The notes under the pieces were generated by a model. That model worked only from the letters and a program-made list of their open reading frames with translations, was not told the DNA's origin and searched no databases. Below, in pieces: positions 5,495-24,260 of a stretch of DNA of 24,260 nucleotides. This DNA is from a virus. Every line of letters starts with the position of its first letter. Position 1 is the stretch's first letter. Made by a program: the position numbers and the translations under genes. The stretch spans positions 1 to 24,260 of IMG/VR virus record IMGVR_UViG_3300025849_000218; one strand, 5' to 3'.

Positions 5495-5749
5495 ATGGAA
5501 ATTAAAAAAGACCAATTAGAAAAAATCCAAGGATTTCAAAAAGACTTAAACAAGTTGTTAAACGAAGTAGGATTTTTAGAAGCCCAAAAAACCGCGGTAT
5601 TATCTAAGTTTCACGAAGTAAACAAAGAAACTGAAGACTTTAAAAAAGAACTTGAAGAAGAGTACGGATCGATTAACATTAATCTTGAAGACGGTACCTA
5701 CACTCCTATCGAAAAAGAAGAAGAAAAAAAAGAAGAGGTTAAAGAGTAA
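5495..5749 (+). CDS. Small coiled-coil protein with acidic C-terminus (84 aa)
   Basis: Residues 1-55 (from MEIKKDQLEKIQGFQKDLNK) have regular hydrophobic heptads and should form a coiled coil. A short beta-like segment follows (YGSININLEDGTYTPI, about 57-72) and then a Glu/Lys tail. From memory, such proteins with LExQKxAVLxKFxE helices followed by YGSxxIxLxxGxY are frequent in phages of Bacteroidota and marine samples. The role is unknown. The stop overlaps the next start by one base. The stretch before it (5436-5494, 59 nt) holds only AT-rich leader. Confidence 0.8.
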   Translation: MEIKKDQLEKIQGFQKDLNKLLNEVGFLEAQKTAVLSKFHEVNKETEDFKKELEEEYGSININLEDGTYTPIEKEEEKKEEVKE

Positions 5750-5976
5750 TGTCATCTGTTATTAGAAAGATCAGTATAGGATCTGATTACAAAACAGATG
5801 CTATGCATTATTCTTTGGCTCAGTCGGTATATGGAGGTCACACTATATCTCATATACTCTTTGATTCAAAAGATAATTCTTATAACATTTACATTAAAAA
5901 GAACAGCGAAGTATTGCCGTGGAAGAAGTTTAATTCTAACATGGCAATATCCGTTGAATATGATTTAGAATACTAA
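5749..5976 (+). CDS. Conserved-looking small phage protein (75 aa), function unknown
   Basis: The 75-residue product reads IRKISIGSDYK followed by DAMHYSLAQSVYGGHTISHI, a beta pair containing YNIYIKKNSE, VLPWKKFN and a final strand NMAISVEYDLEY. It looks like a compact alpha/beta domain. From memory, an almost identical pattern (IRKISIGxDYKxxAMHY...VYGGHTI...IYIKKxxExxxWKxFNxNMxxSxEY) occurs repeatedly in marine phages just upstream of the packaging genes. No enzymatic motif is evident. It overlaps both neighbours by single-base TAATG junctions. Confidence 0.8.
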   Translation: MSSVIRKISIGSDYKTDAMHYSLAQSVYGGHTISHILFDSKDNSYNIYIKKNSEVLPWKKFNSNMAISVEYDLEY

Positions 5977-17221: not shown

Positions 17222-20200
17222 ATGGCAGAAATTAAAAATAGTTTTCTAAAATCCAAGATGAATAAAGACTTGGATGATAGATTAATTCCTAACGGTGAGT
17301 ATAGAGATGCAAATAATATATCTGTAGGTAAATCTGAAGATGATGATATAGGTGCATTAGAAAACGTAAAAGGTAATACTTTAGTTCCTGGAACTAATGT
17401 TGGATCGTTAGAAGTTATAGGTTACTTAAAAGATAACAACTCTGAAACTATTTATTTATTTTTAACAAACAATGCTAGCGATCACAGGATATATAAATAT
17501 TATAATAATTCATATACAAAAATAGTTGAAGGGGCTTTTTTAAACTTTAGCAATGAAAATTTAATAAGCGGTATTAATCTTGTAGAAAACTTATTATTTT
17601 TTACAGATAATAGAAATCAACCTAGAAAAATAAATGTTAACAAACCTTTGGGTTATTACACAAAAGAAAACCAAATATCAGTTGCTAAATATAACCCATA
17701 CAAACCATTAGAATTATTAAAGTCTACAACAAGCACAGCTGGAGCAGCAAGCACTTCTACAACTATAACACTATCAACGGCTAATACAGCTATAAAAAAA
17801 GGTATGAATGTTATTGGTCCAACTATAACAGCTGATCAATATATATATGTAACAAATGTATCCGGTGTAACTATAACTATAAATGCCGCCGCAACAGTAG
17901 CAAACTTAGATGTTTTAACATTTTTGGCTACAACTATGACTGGCAAGGATATTACTTATGATTTTAATGGTGGTGCAGATTGGCCTGGTGATCCAGATTT
18001 TTTAGAGGATTTATTTGTAAGGTTTAGTTATAGATTTAAGTTTGATGATGAAGAGTATTCTATAATGGCACCGTTTACTCAACCTGCTTTTATTCCACAA
18101 CAAAAAGGTTATTTTTTAGCTGATGATGAAGATACTTCATATAGAAGTACAATATTAGCTTTTATGCAAAATGGTGTGCAAAATGTAGAATTAATTATAC
18201 CATTACCTGATGCGCAAAATAAACTTGGAGATCAAGCAAATGATACATATAAAATAACTGAAATAGATATACTGTATAAAGAATCAGATGGTAGAGCTGT
18301 AAAAGTTTTAGATACAGTTAAAACTGAAAATTTATCTTCAAGTTCTAATATTTATACATATGATTATCAATCCAGAAAACCTTATAAAACACTACCAGAA
18401 AGACAAACAGTAAGGGTTTATGATAGAGTTCCCGTAAGAGCTTTATCTCAAGAAATAGCTGGTAACAGGGTTATGTATGGTAATTTTCAAAGTCAGCATA
18501 CTCCGCCTGTAACATTAGATTATAATGTTGGTGCTAGTGCAAAAAACTCTACAGTTTTTACTAATTGGGCGGAATATCCTAATCATACTTTAAAACAAAA
18601 CAGAAACTATCAAGTAGGTTTCATACTTGCTGATAAATTTGGTAGACAGTCTTCAGTTATACTATCCTCTGTTGATCAAGGTACTACTGTTGGTTCTGAT
18701 TTTTTTGGTGGTTCAACTTTTTATCACCCTTACTCTTCAACAACTCAAAACTTAAAACAATGGTTTGGTGATGCTTTAAAAGTTGTTATAAATACAGCTA
18801 TATCAAGCTCACAAGATTCTAACACTGGAACACCAGGTTTGTATGCTGAAGAAAAAGGTAATGGTTTTAACGCATTATCAATAGCACAGTTAAATACACC
18901 TGTTACTATACCAGTTTTAAATGAAACAGGATTTGAATATGAATTTACATTGGTTAATACTACAGCTACTACTAACGCAGTCCAGTATGGCGTAGGCGAT
19001 GACACAACTGTAACAATAACTACAAGTAATGCTGATATTAAAATCGGTGATAGTCTTATAAATAATACAACAAAAGCTGTTTATGGTATAATAACTGAAC
19101 TAATAGGAAGCTCTCCTTATACGCAATTTAAAGCAGATATAACAGCAATTATTCCCCAATCAACTTTACTTTTATTTTGTGATATAACTGATATATCAAA
19201 TGTAGGAGAATATTTAAGAGGAGAATATCAAGACTTTACTCAAGTTGTTGAAGTTGATTTAACAGCTTTACCTGTTTGTGAAATATATACTAAAACAAAA
19301 ATTAACGAATTTTTATATTCTGCTACAACTAATAATCCTGATACAAAGTTTGCTTATACTTTACCTAATACTTTAGGTTGGTATTCGTATAAAGTTGTTG
19401 TTAAACAACAAGAGCAAGATTATTACAACTGTTATTTACCTGGGTTTTTAAATGGATATCCTGATCACGGTGGTACATCACCTTATCCCACAAATGAAAA
19501 TAATAAAACAGCTCATGTTATTTTACTTAATGACAACATAAATAAAATACCTAGAGATTTAAACGAAACATCTGATCAACAAAAGCAATTCAGAAGCTCA
19601 GTAAGATTATATGGTAGGGTAAATAATACAGCAACAGATAATGTTCAATTTTTTCCAGTAAGCACAAGTGGTACTCAAATACTACCATTAAACATGACAG
19701 CTGATACAATTGCTACAGCTGTAGATTTAAACATGGGCTTTACTGAACTGTCGAATGCTGGTAGAGATAATTTTTATCAATTAGATACAAATCCTTTAAT
19801 AAGTAGATTAGCTTCTTCTAATGCAGGTACAACTAATATAGGTGTTTTAACAGCAAATTTAACTACACCTTTTCTTTCTATTGTTGAAACAGAACCTGTT
19901 GAAAGCTTATTACAATTATTTTATGAAACATCTACAGCTGGTTTAATAGCTGATTTAAATGCTGACATAAATACTGGGTTTGATGGAGTAGCTGCTTTAT
20001 CTGCTTTAAGCTATTCACATAACGAAGGCATGGCTGCTAACACAGATATAACTGCTATTTTTTATCCACAAAACAATCAAGGTAGTAATTTTTCTAACAC
20101 GAATATAAGCGCTGTTAGTATGACGGTGATTGATGGCGCTCAGCAAACTAGAGCTACAGGAAACTTAGTTGATGGTTTTACAGGTGATTTTAAACTAATA

Positions 20201-21649
20201 ACATCTGGAACAGGTTATAAATTACAAACAGCTGTTGATACATTTATTTATTCTAACGCTGGATATGAAACTAATGGTGATTCAAAAGAAGTTTATACCT
20301 TTACATTTACATGGACAACTGTAGGAGGTGATACTAGTTCTACTGTAGCAACTGGATCACTAACTAATTTAGCTCCAGTTTTTGTAGCTGGTTCTAGTTT
20401 ACCAAATGTTACAGTTAGCGCTGGTGATGCAACTGGTGTAACTAGAAATGGATATAATGGTTCAGCAACAAGTAGTTCGACCCAGTTAAAATACAGTATA
20501 GTTTCACAATCTCCTGGTTCATATTTTTCAGTTGACTCGACAACAGGTGTTGTAACTAAATTAACCTCTACGCCTATAGGTGTTTATACTTTAAATTTAA
20601 AAATAGAAGATGCAATCATAAGTGGCGTTGCACAAAGTAATTCTTTAAGTGTAACCAAACCACAAATTATAACTGTAGGTGCTGTAGCTGTTAATAACGG
20701 TGTTATATCTGGTTGTAAAACTCTTGGTAGCCCTAACAATGTTGCTACAGCACAAATAACTGCTCCGTTTAATGGAACAACTGTTGTTGGTGTTTGGTAT
20801 TTATCAAACAACGTTTTGGCTTCTAGTGCTTTTCCAGTGACGCCTTCAACAAATACAAGTGAATCAAACTTTTTTCATAGACTAGGTTCAGCTGCATTGA
20901 GCACAGGAACACTGGTTATTTCTTGTAACATGCAACAAAGCTTTACAAATAATCAAGGTGGTTTAATGAGTTTTGTAAATTCAGGTATAATATGGAAGGT
21001 ATGGCATAGAGATCCTAGTGTAACTAGTAATTGGGCTATGATAGAAGATGTTAACAATGACAATATGGGTGCTCCAGGAGTAACTTCATTTATATCAAAT
21101 TCTTCTTTTGGAACAACTAAACACGCGCAAACTGTGTTTGCTTTTGATGAGCCAGGTGAATATGCTATAGCGGCAACCGATGCAAATACAGGTCAAGCTG
21201 CTGTTGCAGCTGATGCTATGTGTGCTTGGGTAAACACTAATGATTTATACTACAGTACGTGCGTTGTAGAAAACGGATTAGACGTAACAAGCACTGATAA
21301 TCCTAAATACTATGAATATGATATTTCAGGAGCTCAAACAGCTTATAATTGTGCAACTGGTGGCACACCAAGATTTGCGCCAATGCCATATGCTCAATAT
21401 GTAGATTTATTTTACACAACAAACGCGTTAAATGTTCCTTGGACACATAGTCAAGCTGAATACCGTAGTTTTAAAACAGACGCTGCAGAACCACTTACAA
21501 GTATAAGAGTTTCGGCTAAGTTTGGTACAAACGGTATAAAAATAAGTCCCGCTTTAATACCTGATGCTTGTAGTGATCAATATGCTAGAGCTTGTCAAGC
21601 TGGTAATATAACTTGTGCTCACCCTGTATATGGTGGTGAAGGATGGTAG
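17222..21649 (+). CDS. Giant tail protein: nozzle N-terminal part with Ig/cadherin-like extension
   Basis: The 1475-residue protein starts MAEIKNSFLKSKMNKDLDDR, then LIPNGEYRDANNISVGKSED. This is the start typical of T7-gp12-like tail nozzle (tail tubular B) proteins of marine podoviruses. Nozzle-like beta-propeller stretches run to about residue 500-750 (LLFFTDNRNQPRKINV, QVGFILADKFGRQSSVILSS). Two copies of an N-x-x-I-K-x-G beta module lie near 179-234 and 594-650. From about 780 on the sequence is Ser/Thr/Asn-rich; residues about 1050-1130 look like a cadherin/Ig-type domain (LAPVFVAG..., FSVDSTTGVVTKL). The C-terminal ~60 residues hold four cysteines. The rest of the nozzle appears to be the next gene. 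The extension probably decorates the tail tip and may touch the host. Confidence 0.75.
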   Translation: MAEIKNSFLKSKMNKDLDDRLIPNGEYRDANNISVGKSEDDDIGALENVKGNTLVPGTNVGSLEVIGYLKDNNSETIYLFLTNNASDHRIYKYYNNSYTKIVEGAFLNFSNENLISGINLVENLLFFTDNRNQPRKINVNKPLGYYTKENQISVAKYNPYKPLELLKSTTSTAGAASTSTTITLSTANTAIKKGMNVIGPTITADQYIYVTNVSGVTITINAAATVANLDVLTFLATTMTGKDITYDFNGGADWPGDPDFLEDLFVRFSYRFKFDDEEYSIMAPFTQPAFIPQQKGYFLADDEDTSYRSTILAFMQNGVQNVELIIPLPDAQNKLGDQANDTYKITEIDILYKESDGRAVKVLDTVKTENLSSSSNIYTYDYQSRKPYKTLPERQTVRVYDRVPVRALSQEIAGNRVMYGNFQSQHTPPVTLDYNVGASAKNSTVFTNWAEYPNHTLKQNRNYQVGFILADKFGRQSSVILSSVDQGTTVGSDFFGGSTFYHPYSSTTQNLKQWFGDALKVVINTAISSSQDSNTGTPGLYAEEKGNGFNALSIAQLNTPVTIPVLNETGFEYEFTLVNTTATTNAVQYGVGDDTTVTITTSNADIKIGDSLINNTTKAVYGIITELIGSSPYTQFKADITAIIPQSTLLLFCDITDISNVGEYLRGEYQDFTQVVEVDLTALPVCEIYTKTKINEFLYSATTNNPDTKFAYTLPNTLGWYSYKVVVKQQEQDYYNCYLPGFLNGYPDHGGTSPYPTNENNKTAHVILLNDNINKIPRDLNETSDQQKQFRSSVRLYGRVNNTATDNVQFFPVSTSGTQILPLNMTADTIATAVDLNMGFTELSNAGRDNFYQLDTNPLISRLASSNAGTTNIGVLTANLTTPFLSIVETEPVESLLQLFYETSTAGLIADLNADINTGFDGVAALSALSYSHNEGMAANTDITAIFYPQNNQGSNFSNTNISAVSMTVIDGAQQTRATGNLVDGFTGDFKLITSGTGYKLQTAVDTFIYSNAGYETNGDSKEVYTFTFTWTTVGGDTSSTVATGSLTNLAPVFVAGSSLPNVTVSAGDATGVTRNGYNGSATSSSTQLKYSIVSQSPGSYFSVDSTTGVVTKLTSTPIGVYTLNLKIEDAIISGVAQSNSLSVTKPQIITVGAVAVNNGVISGCKTLGSPNNVATAQITAPFNGTTVVGVWYLSNNVLASSAFPVTPSTNTSESNFFHRLGSAALSTGTLVISCNMQQSFTNNQGGLMSFVNSGIIWKVWHRDPSVTSNWAMIEDVNNDNMGAPGVTSFISNSSFGTTKHAQTVFAFDEPGEYAIAATDANTGQAAVAADAMCAWVNTNDLYYSTCVVENGLDVTSTDNPKYYEYDISGAQTAYNCATGGTPRFAPMPYAQYVDLFYTTNALNVPWTHSQAEYRSFKTDAAEPLTSIRVSAKFGTNGIKISPALIPDACSDQYARACQAGNITCAHPVYGGEGW

Positions 21650-21684: not shown

Positions 21685-23016
21685 ATGGGTGCTACTTTAG
21701 AACTAAAATATTTTAACTCATACTGGTTGAAGAAAATGTCAAACGTTGTAGATGCTAATCCACAACCAACAGCGCCTTATGCAACTGTACCTCAAGCTTA
21801 TGCTAATGATAATGCAACTGATTGGTTTATTGAAGAAGCAAGAATAAGAGGTGGTTATAATAACACTATAACTGATTTAGGTGTTAAAGCTCATATAGTT
21901 GAAGACAATCCTAACAATCAAAATAGGTTTAATACAATTATATATTCAGGGGTTTTTAATTCTAGAACAGGTATTAACCAAACAAATGAATTTTCAGTAG
22001 GTGAAGACATAACTAGAGGTGTAGATCCAGCACATGGTAAAATAATGAAATTATATGCAGAAGATACTAATCTAATTATATTTCAAGAAGACAAAGTTAA
22101 TAGAGCTTTAATAGATAAAGATGCTATATATACAGCAGAAGGTCAAGCTTTAACAGCGTCAGGAAGAATGGTTATTGGTCAAATAGTACCTTACAAAGGT
22201 AATTATGGTATAGCTACAGATCCTTTTAGTTTTGCTGTTTATGGTTACAGAAAATACTTTACAGACAGAAAAAGAGGTTGTGTGTTGAGATTAACAACAG
22301 GTGGTGAAATTGTAGAAATATCAGGTTATGGTATGCATGATTTTTTTAGAGATCAGCTCACACAAGATGGTATAACTAGAATAGTAGGTGGTTGGGACAA
22401 CCATACTAAAAATTATATACTGTCTATACAAACAGCTTCAGGTTATAGCACAACTTCGTTTGATGAAGGTGTACAAGGTTGGACTAGTTTCTTTAGTTTT
22501 AAACCAAGCTTTATGTTTAGTTTAACATCTACTTTCTTTTCTACAAACGCTGGTAAGTTATATAGTCATTATGGCAGTAGTGCATATGGTCGTTTTTATG
22601 ATGCACCTAACAATATATTTCCATCTGATGTAACAGTTGTTTTAAACTCTTCACCATCTACGGTAAAAGTATTTAAAACAGTTAATTATGAAGGTAATAA
22701 TGACTGGACTGTTAGCAATATAGTTGCTAGTTCTGGTGACATAGCTTTAGTACCAATATCTAAATACAGTTTACCAAGCAACTTAACTGACTTAGAAAGC
22801 GAAATGTTTTCTAATAAATTTAAAAGAAAAGAAAATAAATACTTTGCTAACATTATAAATAATTCTCCAGCAACAAAAGGTGAAATACTTTGGGGACCAA
22901 GTGTAACAGGTATTAAAGGATTTTTTAGCACATTTAAGTTTAACTTAGATAACAGTATAAACCAAAAAAGAGAATTATTTGCAGTATCTTCTGACACTGT
23001 AGAATCATCATATTAA
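21685..23016 (+). CDS. Tail nozzle C-terminal part (tail tubular B-like)
   Basis: The 443-residue protein resembles the second half of one-piece nozzle proteins. It has KYFNSYWLKK, RFNTIIYSGVFNSRTGINQT, NEFSVGEDITRGVDPAHGKI, MKLYAEDTNLIIFQEDKVNR, GNYGIATDPFSFAVYGYRKY, FTDRKRGCVLRLTTGGEIVE and ISGYGMHDFFRDQL. This is the familiar order IYSG..N..NxF......DxxxGxIxxL...DTxxxxFxEDKV, then YGI..xPxS, then YFTDxxRGxVLRL. It starts with its own ATG; an in-frame stop at 21676-21678 excludes extension upstream, and 35 nt separate it from the giant protein before it. The two products probably fold together at the tail tip. The remainder (about 230-443) is beta-rich. Confidence 0.78.
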   Translation: MGATLELKYFNSYWLKKMSNVVDANPQPTAPYATVPQAYANDNATDWFIEEARIRGGYNNTITDLGVKAHIVEDNPNNQNRFNTIIYSGVFNSRTGINQTNEFSVGEDITRGVDPAHGKIMKLYAEDTNLIIFQEDKVNRALIDKDAIYTAEGQALTASGRMVIGQIVPYKGNYGIATDPFSFAVYGYRKYFTDRKRGCVLRLTTGGEIVEISGYGMHDFFRDQLTQDGITRIVGGWDNHTKNYILSIQTASGYSTTSFDEGVQGWTSFFSFKPSFMFSLTSTFFSTNAGKLYSHYGSSAYGRFYDAPNNIFPSDVTVVLNSSPSTVKVFKTVNYEGNNDWTVSNIVASSGDIALVPISKYSLPSNLTDLESEMFSNKFKRKENKYFANIINNSPATKGEILWGPSVTGIKGFFSTFKFNLDNSINQKRELFAVSSDTVESSY

Positions 23017-23022
23017 AATATT

Positions 23023-23871
23023 ATGGAAGAAGTTTTAAATATATTATACGAATTTTTATTCGCTACACCTGAAGGTGTTAACATGGGTATTGCTCCTTTG
23101 GTAGCTGGAGCATTAGTTAGTGGTGTGGGTAAAGTTATAGGTGGTTTATTTGGTGCTGGTAGAGCTAGAAGAGCTAGAAGAAGAGCCGCCGCTGAAAAAA
23201 GAAAATTAAAAGGTGAGTTAAACAGTTTAGAAAAAAGTAGACAAAAAATAGTAAATCCATATTCAAATACAAAAGACTTAAGCTCGCTGGCTAAAGATCT
23301 TAGTGGTAATTTAAGTAATCCATACGGTAATTTAAGTGTTTCTACTGCTGGTGCTGCTATGCAAGTAGAAGAGGCAGATATTGCATTAGCGAACACCTTA
23401 GACACCTTAAGAGCTACAGGTGCTAGTGCTGGTGGAGCAACTGCTTTAGCTCAAGCTGCTTTACAAAGTAAAAAAGGTGTAGCAGCTAGTATTGAAGCTC
23501 AAGAAGCATCTAATGAAAAACTAAGAGCACAAGGTGAAGAGTATTTACAACAGGCACAAATAAAAGAACAAACAAGATTACAAAACGTAAACATTCAAGA
23601 AGGTAGAAGAACACAACAAGCTGACGCTTTGGGTAAAACATTTATGTTTAACGCTCAAGAAAAAAGAGAAGATAGTAAAATTGGATATACAAGAAGACAA
23701 ATAACAGGTGCACAACAAAGAGAAACTGCTGCATACAATCAAGGTACAAATGCAATGATGGGTGCAATAGGAGGCTTAACACAGTTAGGATCTATTGGTG
23801 CTGCTGGTTTAGCTGGTGGAAAAGGTAATTTTTCAAAAGGAGCTACAGAATATTTAACTGGGGGAAAGTAA
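23023..23871 (+). CDS. Internal virion/ejection-type protein, 0-frame product
   Basis: The 282-residue protein is Ala/Gln/Gly-rich. A hydrophobic Gly-rich segment (MGIAPLVAGALVSGVGKVIG, residues 21-40) is followed by a basic patch (RARRARRRAAAEKRKLKG), then long helices (ADIALANTLDTLRATGASAG, GATALAQAALQSKKGVAASI, QEASNEKLRAQGEEYLQQA), and a Gly-rich end. Such a profile is common among podovirus internal proteins ejected with DNA (T7 gp14-like), but homology is not proven. The start may be ATG 23023 or ATG 23083; the latter has the AACATGG context of several neighbours, while the former leaves almost no gap. The frame ends at 23869-23871 right after a GGGAAAG slippery heptamer, so a longer -1 frameshift product is likely. 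Confidence 0.75.
   Translation: MEEVLNILYEFLFATPEGVNMGIAPLVAGALVSGVGKVIGGLFGAGRARRARRRAAAEKRKLKGELNSLEKSRQKIVNPYSNTKDLSSLAKDLSGNLSNPYGNLSVSTAGAAMQVEEADIALANTLDTLRATGASAGGATALAQAALQSKKGVAASIEAQEASNEKLRAQGEEYLQQAQIKEQTRLQNVNIQEGRRTQQADALGKTFMFNAQEKREDSKIGYTRRQITGAQQRETAAYNQGTNAMMGAIGGLTQLGSIGAAGLAGGKGNFSKGATEYLTGGK
23862..23868 (+). promoter_or_regulatory. Candidate -1 ribosomal frameshift site GGGAAAG
   Basis: In the 0 frame the codons read GGG GGA AAG TAA (23860-23871), so the heptamer is phased G GGA AAG, a proper X XXY YYZ arrangement. GGGAAAG is the slippery sequence of the lambda G/GT tail-assembly gene pair. The stop codon follows immediately. After a 5-nt spacer, GCCA (23874-23877) can pair with TGGC (23882-23885), a small stem that might stimulate slippage. 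Confidence 0.65.
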
Positions 23872-23996
23872 ACGCCAGTAGTGGCAATAATACTTTTGGC
23901 TTAACACCAACAGACAAAATTGATATAAATTTTGGTAAATCAGATCCAACAAGTGATAGTTATCAAAATAGATATTTTGCACAGTATCCACAATAA
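23868..23996 (+). CDS. -1 frame extension of the internal virion protein (42 aa)
   Basis: After slipping at GGGAAAG, translation would continue with GTA AAC GCC and so on for 42 codons to TAA at 23994-23996, giving a 324-residue product. The tail includes NNTFGLTPTDKIDINFGKSD followed by PTSDSYQNRYFAQYPQ, which looks like real protein sequence. This frame is open only from 23829, after a TAA at 23826-23828, and contains no ATG, GTG or TTG, so it is not an independent gene. It fills nearly all of the otherwise unexplained space before the next start at 24006. The alternative is a recent frameshift mutation or sequencing indel in the G-run. Confidence 0.6.
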   Translation, partial: VNASSGNNTFGLTPTDKIDINFGKSDPTSDSYQNRYFAQYPQ

Positions 23997-24005
23997 ATTA
24001 ACACA

Positions 24006-24260
24006 ATGGGATTAAAAGAAAAATTAATAGAAAACAAAAAAATTAACGAACAGATTAAGTTTGCTATATCAGAACAACAATCTAGACTTTCTTATGAACT
24101 TGGTTATAGCGATAGCAAGGTAGAGCCTATTGATTATGCATCTTTGTTTGATCCTTTTATAAAACAATATGCAGACATGCAACTAGCGCTTACAAATGGG
24201 ACAAGCAAAAACCCTATGTATGACAGAAAGTTTAGTGATTTAATCATGGCTAGCGTTGAA
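24006..24260 (+). CDS. Virion-associated protein, 3' truncated by window edge
   Basis: ATG at 24006 opens a frame that runs to the window end (85 codons, no stop). The visible part starts MGLKEKLIENKKINEQIKFA and continues with ISEQQSRLSYELGYSDSKVE, YASLFDPFIKQYADMQLALT and PMYDRKFSDLIMASVE; it is helical and polar. The position after the internal virion protein and the A-rich, non-Shine-Dalgarno start match the operon. The family is not recognised; another internal or tail-associated structural protein is likely. Confidence 0.65.
   Translation, partial: MGLKEKLIENKKINEQIKFAISEQQSRLSYELGYSDSKVEPIDYASLFDPFIKQYADMQLALTNGTSKNPMYDRKFSDLIMASVE

Follow-up and report, generated by a model that had tools for sequence, protein, structure and literature searches.

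A candidate programmed -1 frameshift site at the end of a putative gp14-like virion protein gene in phages related to crassviruses

The DNA analyzed here, referred to as the window, is a 24,260-bp IMG/VR virus record. It carries a terminase, a portal and further virion genes, and the gene under study lies far downstream of the terminase-portal block. The terminase matched those of Flavobacterium elemo phages at 44%, and Cellulophaga phages were also matched. Terminase and muzzle together are related to proteins of Cellulophaga, Flavobacterium elemo, Tenacibaculum and Maribacter phages, and by these two proteins the window is related to the Crassvirales/Pervagoviridae group. The gene had been predicted to lie behind a podovirus-like nozzle gene, and the upstream gene indeed matches the Pfam family crAss_MUZ_C. 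The muzzle is encoded by two genes, 17222-21649 and 21685-23016 (about 1,475 and 443 aa), as in the metagenomic relatives checked; it is a single fused gene in phi38:1 and elemo, and is split in Panino. The features at the end of the window are as follows:

21685-23016, + strand: muzzle/nozzle protein, C-terminal part (Pfam crAss_MUZ_C, 38.3 bits against a cut-off of 27)
23023-23871, + strand: 0-frame gene adjoining the muzzle gene, 282 aa; putative gp14-like ejection/cargo virion protein, short (main) form
23862-23868, + strand: candidate slippery heptamer G_GGA_AAG, in phase, read in the sequence; kept in 13 homologues, with variants in 8 more
23869-23871, + strand: 0-frame stop codon TAA, directly 3' of the heptamer, read in the sequence
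23874-23885, + strand: putative stimulatory stem-loop GCCA-GTAG-TGGC after a 5-nt spacer (equivalent stems at other sites; covariation)
23868-23996, + strand: -1 frame tail of 42 codons plus stop, predicted to give a 324-aa long form (homology to the tail of locus L020; codon-position pattern in eight tail pairs)
24006-24260, + strand: next gene, start only, cut by the window end, read in the sequence

The 0 frame ends ACT GGG GGA AAG TAA, and GGGAAAG lies exactly in the X_XXY_YYZ phase at 23862-23868, as the original prediction had read it. The other elements that it described were likewise recovered: the -1 frame is open from 23829, its 42 codons contain no ATG, GTG or TTG and end at a stop codon at 23994-23996, 9 nt before the ATG at 24006, and the GCCA/TGGC stem, of only 4 bp, begins exactly 5 nt past the heptamer. 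After a slip, the tail reads VNASSGNNTFGLTPTDKIDINFGKSDPTSDSYQNRYFAQYPQ (42 codons). The shift site contains a run of five Gs. The gene probably starts at 23023 rather than at 23083, because close relatives retain the N-terminal MEEVLNILYEFLF, and the second Met is absent from some of them. Among the other window genes, no in-phase heptamer was found within 15 codons of the stop codon, except for AAAAAAA in 5495-5749. This heptamer stands 7 codons ahead of the stop codon, the accompanying -1 opening of 76 codons extends into the following gene (5749-5976), and the heptamer is probably due to chance.

More than 540 IMG/VR stretches encode relatives of the window gene. Six scans of IMG/VR and one of genome contigs yielded 149 and finally 162 distinct readable homologous genes; all homologues with the site are metagenomic and come from independently assembled contigs. 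An in-phase heptamer at the 0-frame end, followed by a -1 tail of 16-45 aa, was found in 21 of the 162 homologues (13 GGGAAAG, five GGGAAA[C/T] and three AAAAAAG). When only the last five codons of the 149 genes were considered, 20 carried a heptamer, all in phase (13 GGGAAAG, five GGGAAA[C/T] and two AAAAAAG), and none carried an out-of-phase GGGAAAN; this limit, like the stem range used below, was chosen after the first examples had been seen. The larger set adds one AAAAAAG site, L337, a close relative of L086. As a control, none of 643 other ORFs from the same loci contained any such heptamer in phase, and in 236,410 control codons an in-phase heptamer was seen once, where composition predicts 4.4. 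A search for the same heptamer with a -1 tail in homologues had been suggested as a check, and distant homologues (54-58% identical) do keep the heptamer, each with a tail of its own. Heptamer and tail are lacking in 139 of the 162 homologues, including L002, whose core region shares 94% identity with that of the window, and the site is absent from the gene 3' ends of the cultured relatives examined (phi38:1, elemoE and Panino).

At all GGGAAAG sites, GGA is preceded by a codon with G in third position, be it one for Gly, Leu, Thr, Pro, Ser, Val, Ala or Glu; in this gene overall, codons ending in G amount to only 11%. In none of the five Gly-Lys ends spelled GGA AAA is there a preceding G. This pattern argues that selection is acting on the seven nucleotides and not on Gly-Lys. 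One rival reading is that a sequencing or assembly indel in the G-run has broken a gene that truly runs in a single frame to ...YFAQYPQ. The five Gs at the site and the in-frame fused long forms of some relatives (L028) would fit such an error. However, about 20 contigs assembled independently of one another show this arrangement, each with the same heptamer in phase, and the GGGAAAG sites among them also share the stem and its spacing. The indel reading fails because homologues without a long G-run (TTG, CCG or TCG before GGA AAG, thus three Gs only) share the layout; as judged from the assembled sequences, recurrence already refutes it for the family, and we regard it as highly improbable.

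Stems of at least 4 bp, starting 4-7 nt past the heptamer and with an energy of -6 kcal/mol or better, were then searched for. A qualifying stem was detected 4-6 nt downstream at 15 of 20 frameshift sites, compared with 0 of 60 non-frameshift homologues (combined p 3e-14). At the same 20 sites, the search gave 0/20 at a +30 offset and 4/20 upstream. A G+C-rich stem is present at all 13 GGGAAAG sites and at both GGGAAAC sites. No stem was found in the searched range at L086, L099, L153 and L208, which carry AAAAAAG or GGGAAAT; L337 was outside that test. The stem sequences vary (GCCA/TGGC, ACCG/CGGT, GGGA/TCCC, CCAG/CTGG, GGGCC/GGCCC and others) while all pairs are standard, and each of the four outer positions shows three types of pair. 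Since the stems were picked for pairing, the weight of this result is carried by the shuffle and non-frameshift controls; the covariation score of five sites of equal geometry was matched by 0 of 500 shuffles. The window stem, at 5 nt, lies within the 5-9 nt expected for downstream structure at a -1 frameshift site and is a putative stimulator. Pairing of the loop with 3' sequence in an H-type pseudoknot looked attractive in L009, L058, L135 and L211 and gave p 0.32 over all sites combined; because this is not significant, we do not claim a pseudoknot.

We evaluated whether the tails behave as coding sequence in the -1 frame. The tails of the window and L020 are homologous (score 107, null maximum 42), as are those of L058/L066, L087/L099/L009, L015/L135 and L161/L211 and, weakly, L053/L153. 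Frame-blind DNA alignments of eight tail pairs contained 51, 36 and 70 differences at positions 1, 2 and 3 of the -1 frame (p 9e-4), and the -1 frame gave the best protein score in seven of the eight pairs. The tails are therefore conserved as protein in the -1 frame, with two of the eight pairs not supporting this: L015/L135 shows no -1 preference, and L086/L337 shows five nonsynonymous changes to one synonymous. The distance from the 0-frame stop to the next ATG has a median of about 108 nt at the frameshift loci, compared with 13 nt in the other homologues (p 5e-13). It had also been suggested to look for the tail fused in one frame in homologues, and the -1 tail of L024 is found in the 0 frame in its relative L028. 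The tails appear to be short and to have little predicted order, and a comparison of the window tail with the other ORFs of the phage gave nothing above shuffles.

The same observations weigh on two further readings. The tail could be a decaying remnant, once in frame, cut off by an indel and now untranslated, as the in-frame C-terminal extensions of relatives and an apparent out-of-frame leftover of a C-terminal domain in L068 might suggest. A remnant, however, would not share the heptamer, a stem at fixed spacing and a third-position bias in its substitutions, and tails of 24-45 aa are still open at 20 of the 21 sites; we therefore consider decay very unlikely. Alternatively, a separate small protein could be made from the tail by internal initiation or reinitiation, in keeping with its position between two genes of a compact operon. 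The absence of start codons in the 42 codons of the window tail speaks against this, separate initiation would leave both the in-phase heptamer and the stem unexplained, and the counterpart of the L024 tail is fused in L028; such a protein is hardly credible. The recurrent heptamer, the covarying stem, the tails coding in the -1 frame and the in-frame fusion point instead to programmed -1 ribosomal frameshifting, with a 282-aa main form and a minor 324-aa form, a reading to which we assign a probability of about 0.9. Comparison across the family supports joint selection on heptamer, phase, hairpin and coding tail, as far as sequences can tell.

Under programmed frameshifting, ribosomes would decode GGA and AAG at 23863-23868 with the hairpin at 23874-23885 positioned at the mRNA entrance, and a fraction of them would slip both tRNAs back by one base onto GGG AAA. 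The slipped ribosomes would read GTA instead of TAA and add 42 residues, while the majority would stop at TAA. The predicted junction of the long form is ...TGGK-VNASS..., and the trans-frame peptide would be ...TGGKVNASSGNNTFGLTPTDK. The level of shifting in lambda is a few percent; by analogy, a few percent would be expected in the window, and the stem may raise this level. G_GGA_AAG is highly shift-prone in E. coli (PMC5009743); the hosts here are presumed to be flavobacterial.

Regarding the identity of the protein, a direct search of cultured phages with the window protein gave no match, and only a profile reached gp99 of Cellulophaga phage phi38:1 (E 5e-7, filters off). Alignment of the window family with gp99 by hhalign covered 160 columns (probability 93, E 2.7e-7). 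Together with its elemo and Panino counterparts, gp99 matches phrog_13764, "virion structural protein". By these profile comparisons, the window protein is a distant homologue of gp99, a virion structural protein. Both genes belong to the same block behind the muzzle gene, where the order in phi38:1 is the muzzle gene, a small gene (acetyltransferase-like, so named only in the relative MW202828) and then gp99, annotated as structural. They differ in that the acetyltransferase-like gene separates gp99 from the muzzle gene and in that the 3' end of gp99 has neither a slippery heptamer nor a -1 tail. The window protein begins with a hydrophobic stretch. A first AF2 model was poor (pLDDT 57); a second was all-helical (pLDDT 79, pTM 0.51). 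A fold search with the model gave no meaningful PDB match, and no convincing sequence match to solved chains was found. In PhiCrAss001, the muzzle gp44 is followed by cargo protein C1, gp45, and cargo is present in tail and capsid (PMC10172136). The window gene occupies the same slot after the muzzle gene, and both proteins have a hydrophobic segment near the N-terminus; gp45, however, is a 90.8-kDa protein, and the search of solved phage chains gave no sequence match. From its position behind the muzzle gene and the structural annotation of gp99, we infer that the window protein is a gp14-like ejection/cargo protein, internal or ejected.

The original prediction had called the site "Lambda G/GT-type", which holds for the shift site but not for the protein. 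As in lambda, the heptamer G_GGA_AAG lies close to where the 0-frame gene ends, the operon is one for virion assembly, and a minor form is extended at its C-terminus. Unlike the lambda gene, which precedes the tape measure gene and encodes a tail assembly chaperone, the window gene comes after a muzzle gene of the podovirus type, and its product has a virion structural protein as a homologue; searches of PHROG and Pfam gave no match to a chaperone of tail assembly. The tails here are also short, at 16-45 aa, a compact stem follows the heptamer after 4-6 nt, and the shift is missing from most relatives. The capsid systems of T7/T3 (gene 10A/10B), Lactobacillus A2 and Listeria PSA/A118 share with it an end-of-gene frameshift that places a C-terminal extension on a minority of copies. 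There, the shifted genes encode major capsid or tail-shaft proteins, and the extension is Ig-like in several of them, though not in T7, whereas here a small helical putative ejection protein is concerned, and its homology is to phrog_13764, an accessory virion structural protein, and not to a major capsid protein.

Both forms would be present in virions, and the tail would most likely serve as a C-terminal tag on few copies, contacting a partner during packaging or ejection of internal proteins. The main rival to this role is that the long form is an assembly factor, for instance a recruiter of the next cargo protein, that is absent from mature particles like lambda gpGT. The minor long form does arise from the same kind of shift site, and gpG and gpGT both leave the lambda tail (PMC5009743). 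On the other side, the homologue gp99 is annotated as structural in phi38:1, and many relatives extend the C-terminus on every copy, which would suit a resident part of the virion without being decisive. We consider an assembly-only role rather unlikely.

Among the other homologues, a gap of at least 60 nt after the stop codon was found only in L131 and L186. Both end GCC TTT GGG TAA C, and their +1 frame is open from GGG, with tails of 22 and 40 codons, respectively; these are probably +1 frameshift sites. The +1 tail of L131, STVSTLTPQGYSF, matches the -1 tail of L153, NTVSTLTPQGYSF (score 73, null maximum 42), so the same tail is seemingly reached by opposite shifts, a lead from two loci and not proof. 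Capsid frameshifts, including those of Listeria phages, use both -1 and +1 among relatives (PMC5009743).

On a tree of the 162 homologues, the frameshift label changes 17 times, at least 11 of them forced by supported branches. The nearest relatives are often tailless or have a different in-frame C-terminus; L002, for example, has another in-frame stretch at its end. With lengths taken from the GGATAL motif onward, the short forms at frameshift loci have a median of 130 aa, which is the commonest non-frameshift length, and the long forms a median of 162, within the range of the longer in-frame homologues. From the differing ends of relatives and this length pattern, the C-terminus looks like a mosaic module, carried on all copies in some phages, on none in others and, by frameshifting, on a minority in others still. 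Long in-frame versions with a related C-terminal domain were seen in L016, L059, L076, L151, L170, L204 and L249. For the domain of L016, matches were obtained to phrog_6121 and to Peptidase_S74 (chaperone of endosialidase; E 5.5e-4, the best value in the set), and a domain of this type is odd for a putative internal protein. In L068 (3667-3705), the -1 frame right after the 0-frame stop reads INKIDVEFKRIS, which resembles the end of the C-terminal domain, SLIDVEFKKI, and was probably left behind by a deletion.

Known cases of frameshifting among phage virion genes concern tail chaperones, capsids and tail shafts. In the open-access literature, we found no paper on frameshifting in crass-like phages or in internal virion proteins, and as far as we found there, a frameshift-extended putative DNA-injection protein has not been reported previously. 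Here, frameshifting appears to serve a gp14-like protein of crassvirus-related phages, a large group whose members are mostly uncultured, from a site that combines a compact covarying stimulator with a tail that changes quickly. On this reading, many genomes are predicted to encode a second form of a virion protein that is missing from their annotation, and such tails would escape ordinary single-frame gene calling. Tentatively, and with slightly less than an even chance of being right, we propose that marine Bacteroidetes phages of the podovirus type use frameshifting to tune what fraction of the ejection protein bears an exchangeable C-terminal tag. The tag would be a mosaic cassette, varying among close relatives, that can be supplied in frame or through a -1 or +1 shift, and the ratio of tagged to untagged protein would matter for loading or ejecting internal proteins. 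The tails would give a handle on the role of the C-terminus in poorly understood ejection proteins, and the family suggests that one direction of shifting, -1 or +1, can stand in for the other.
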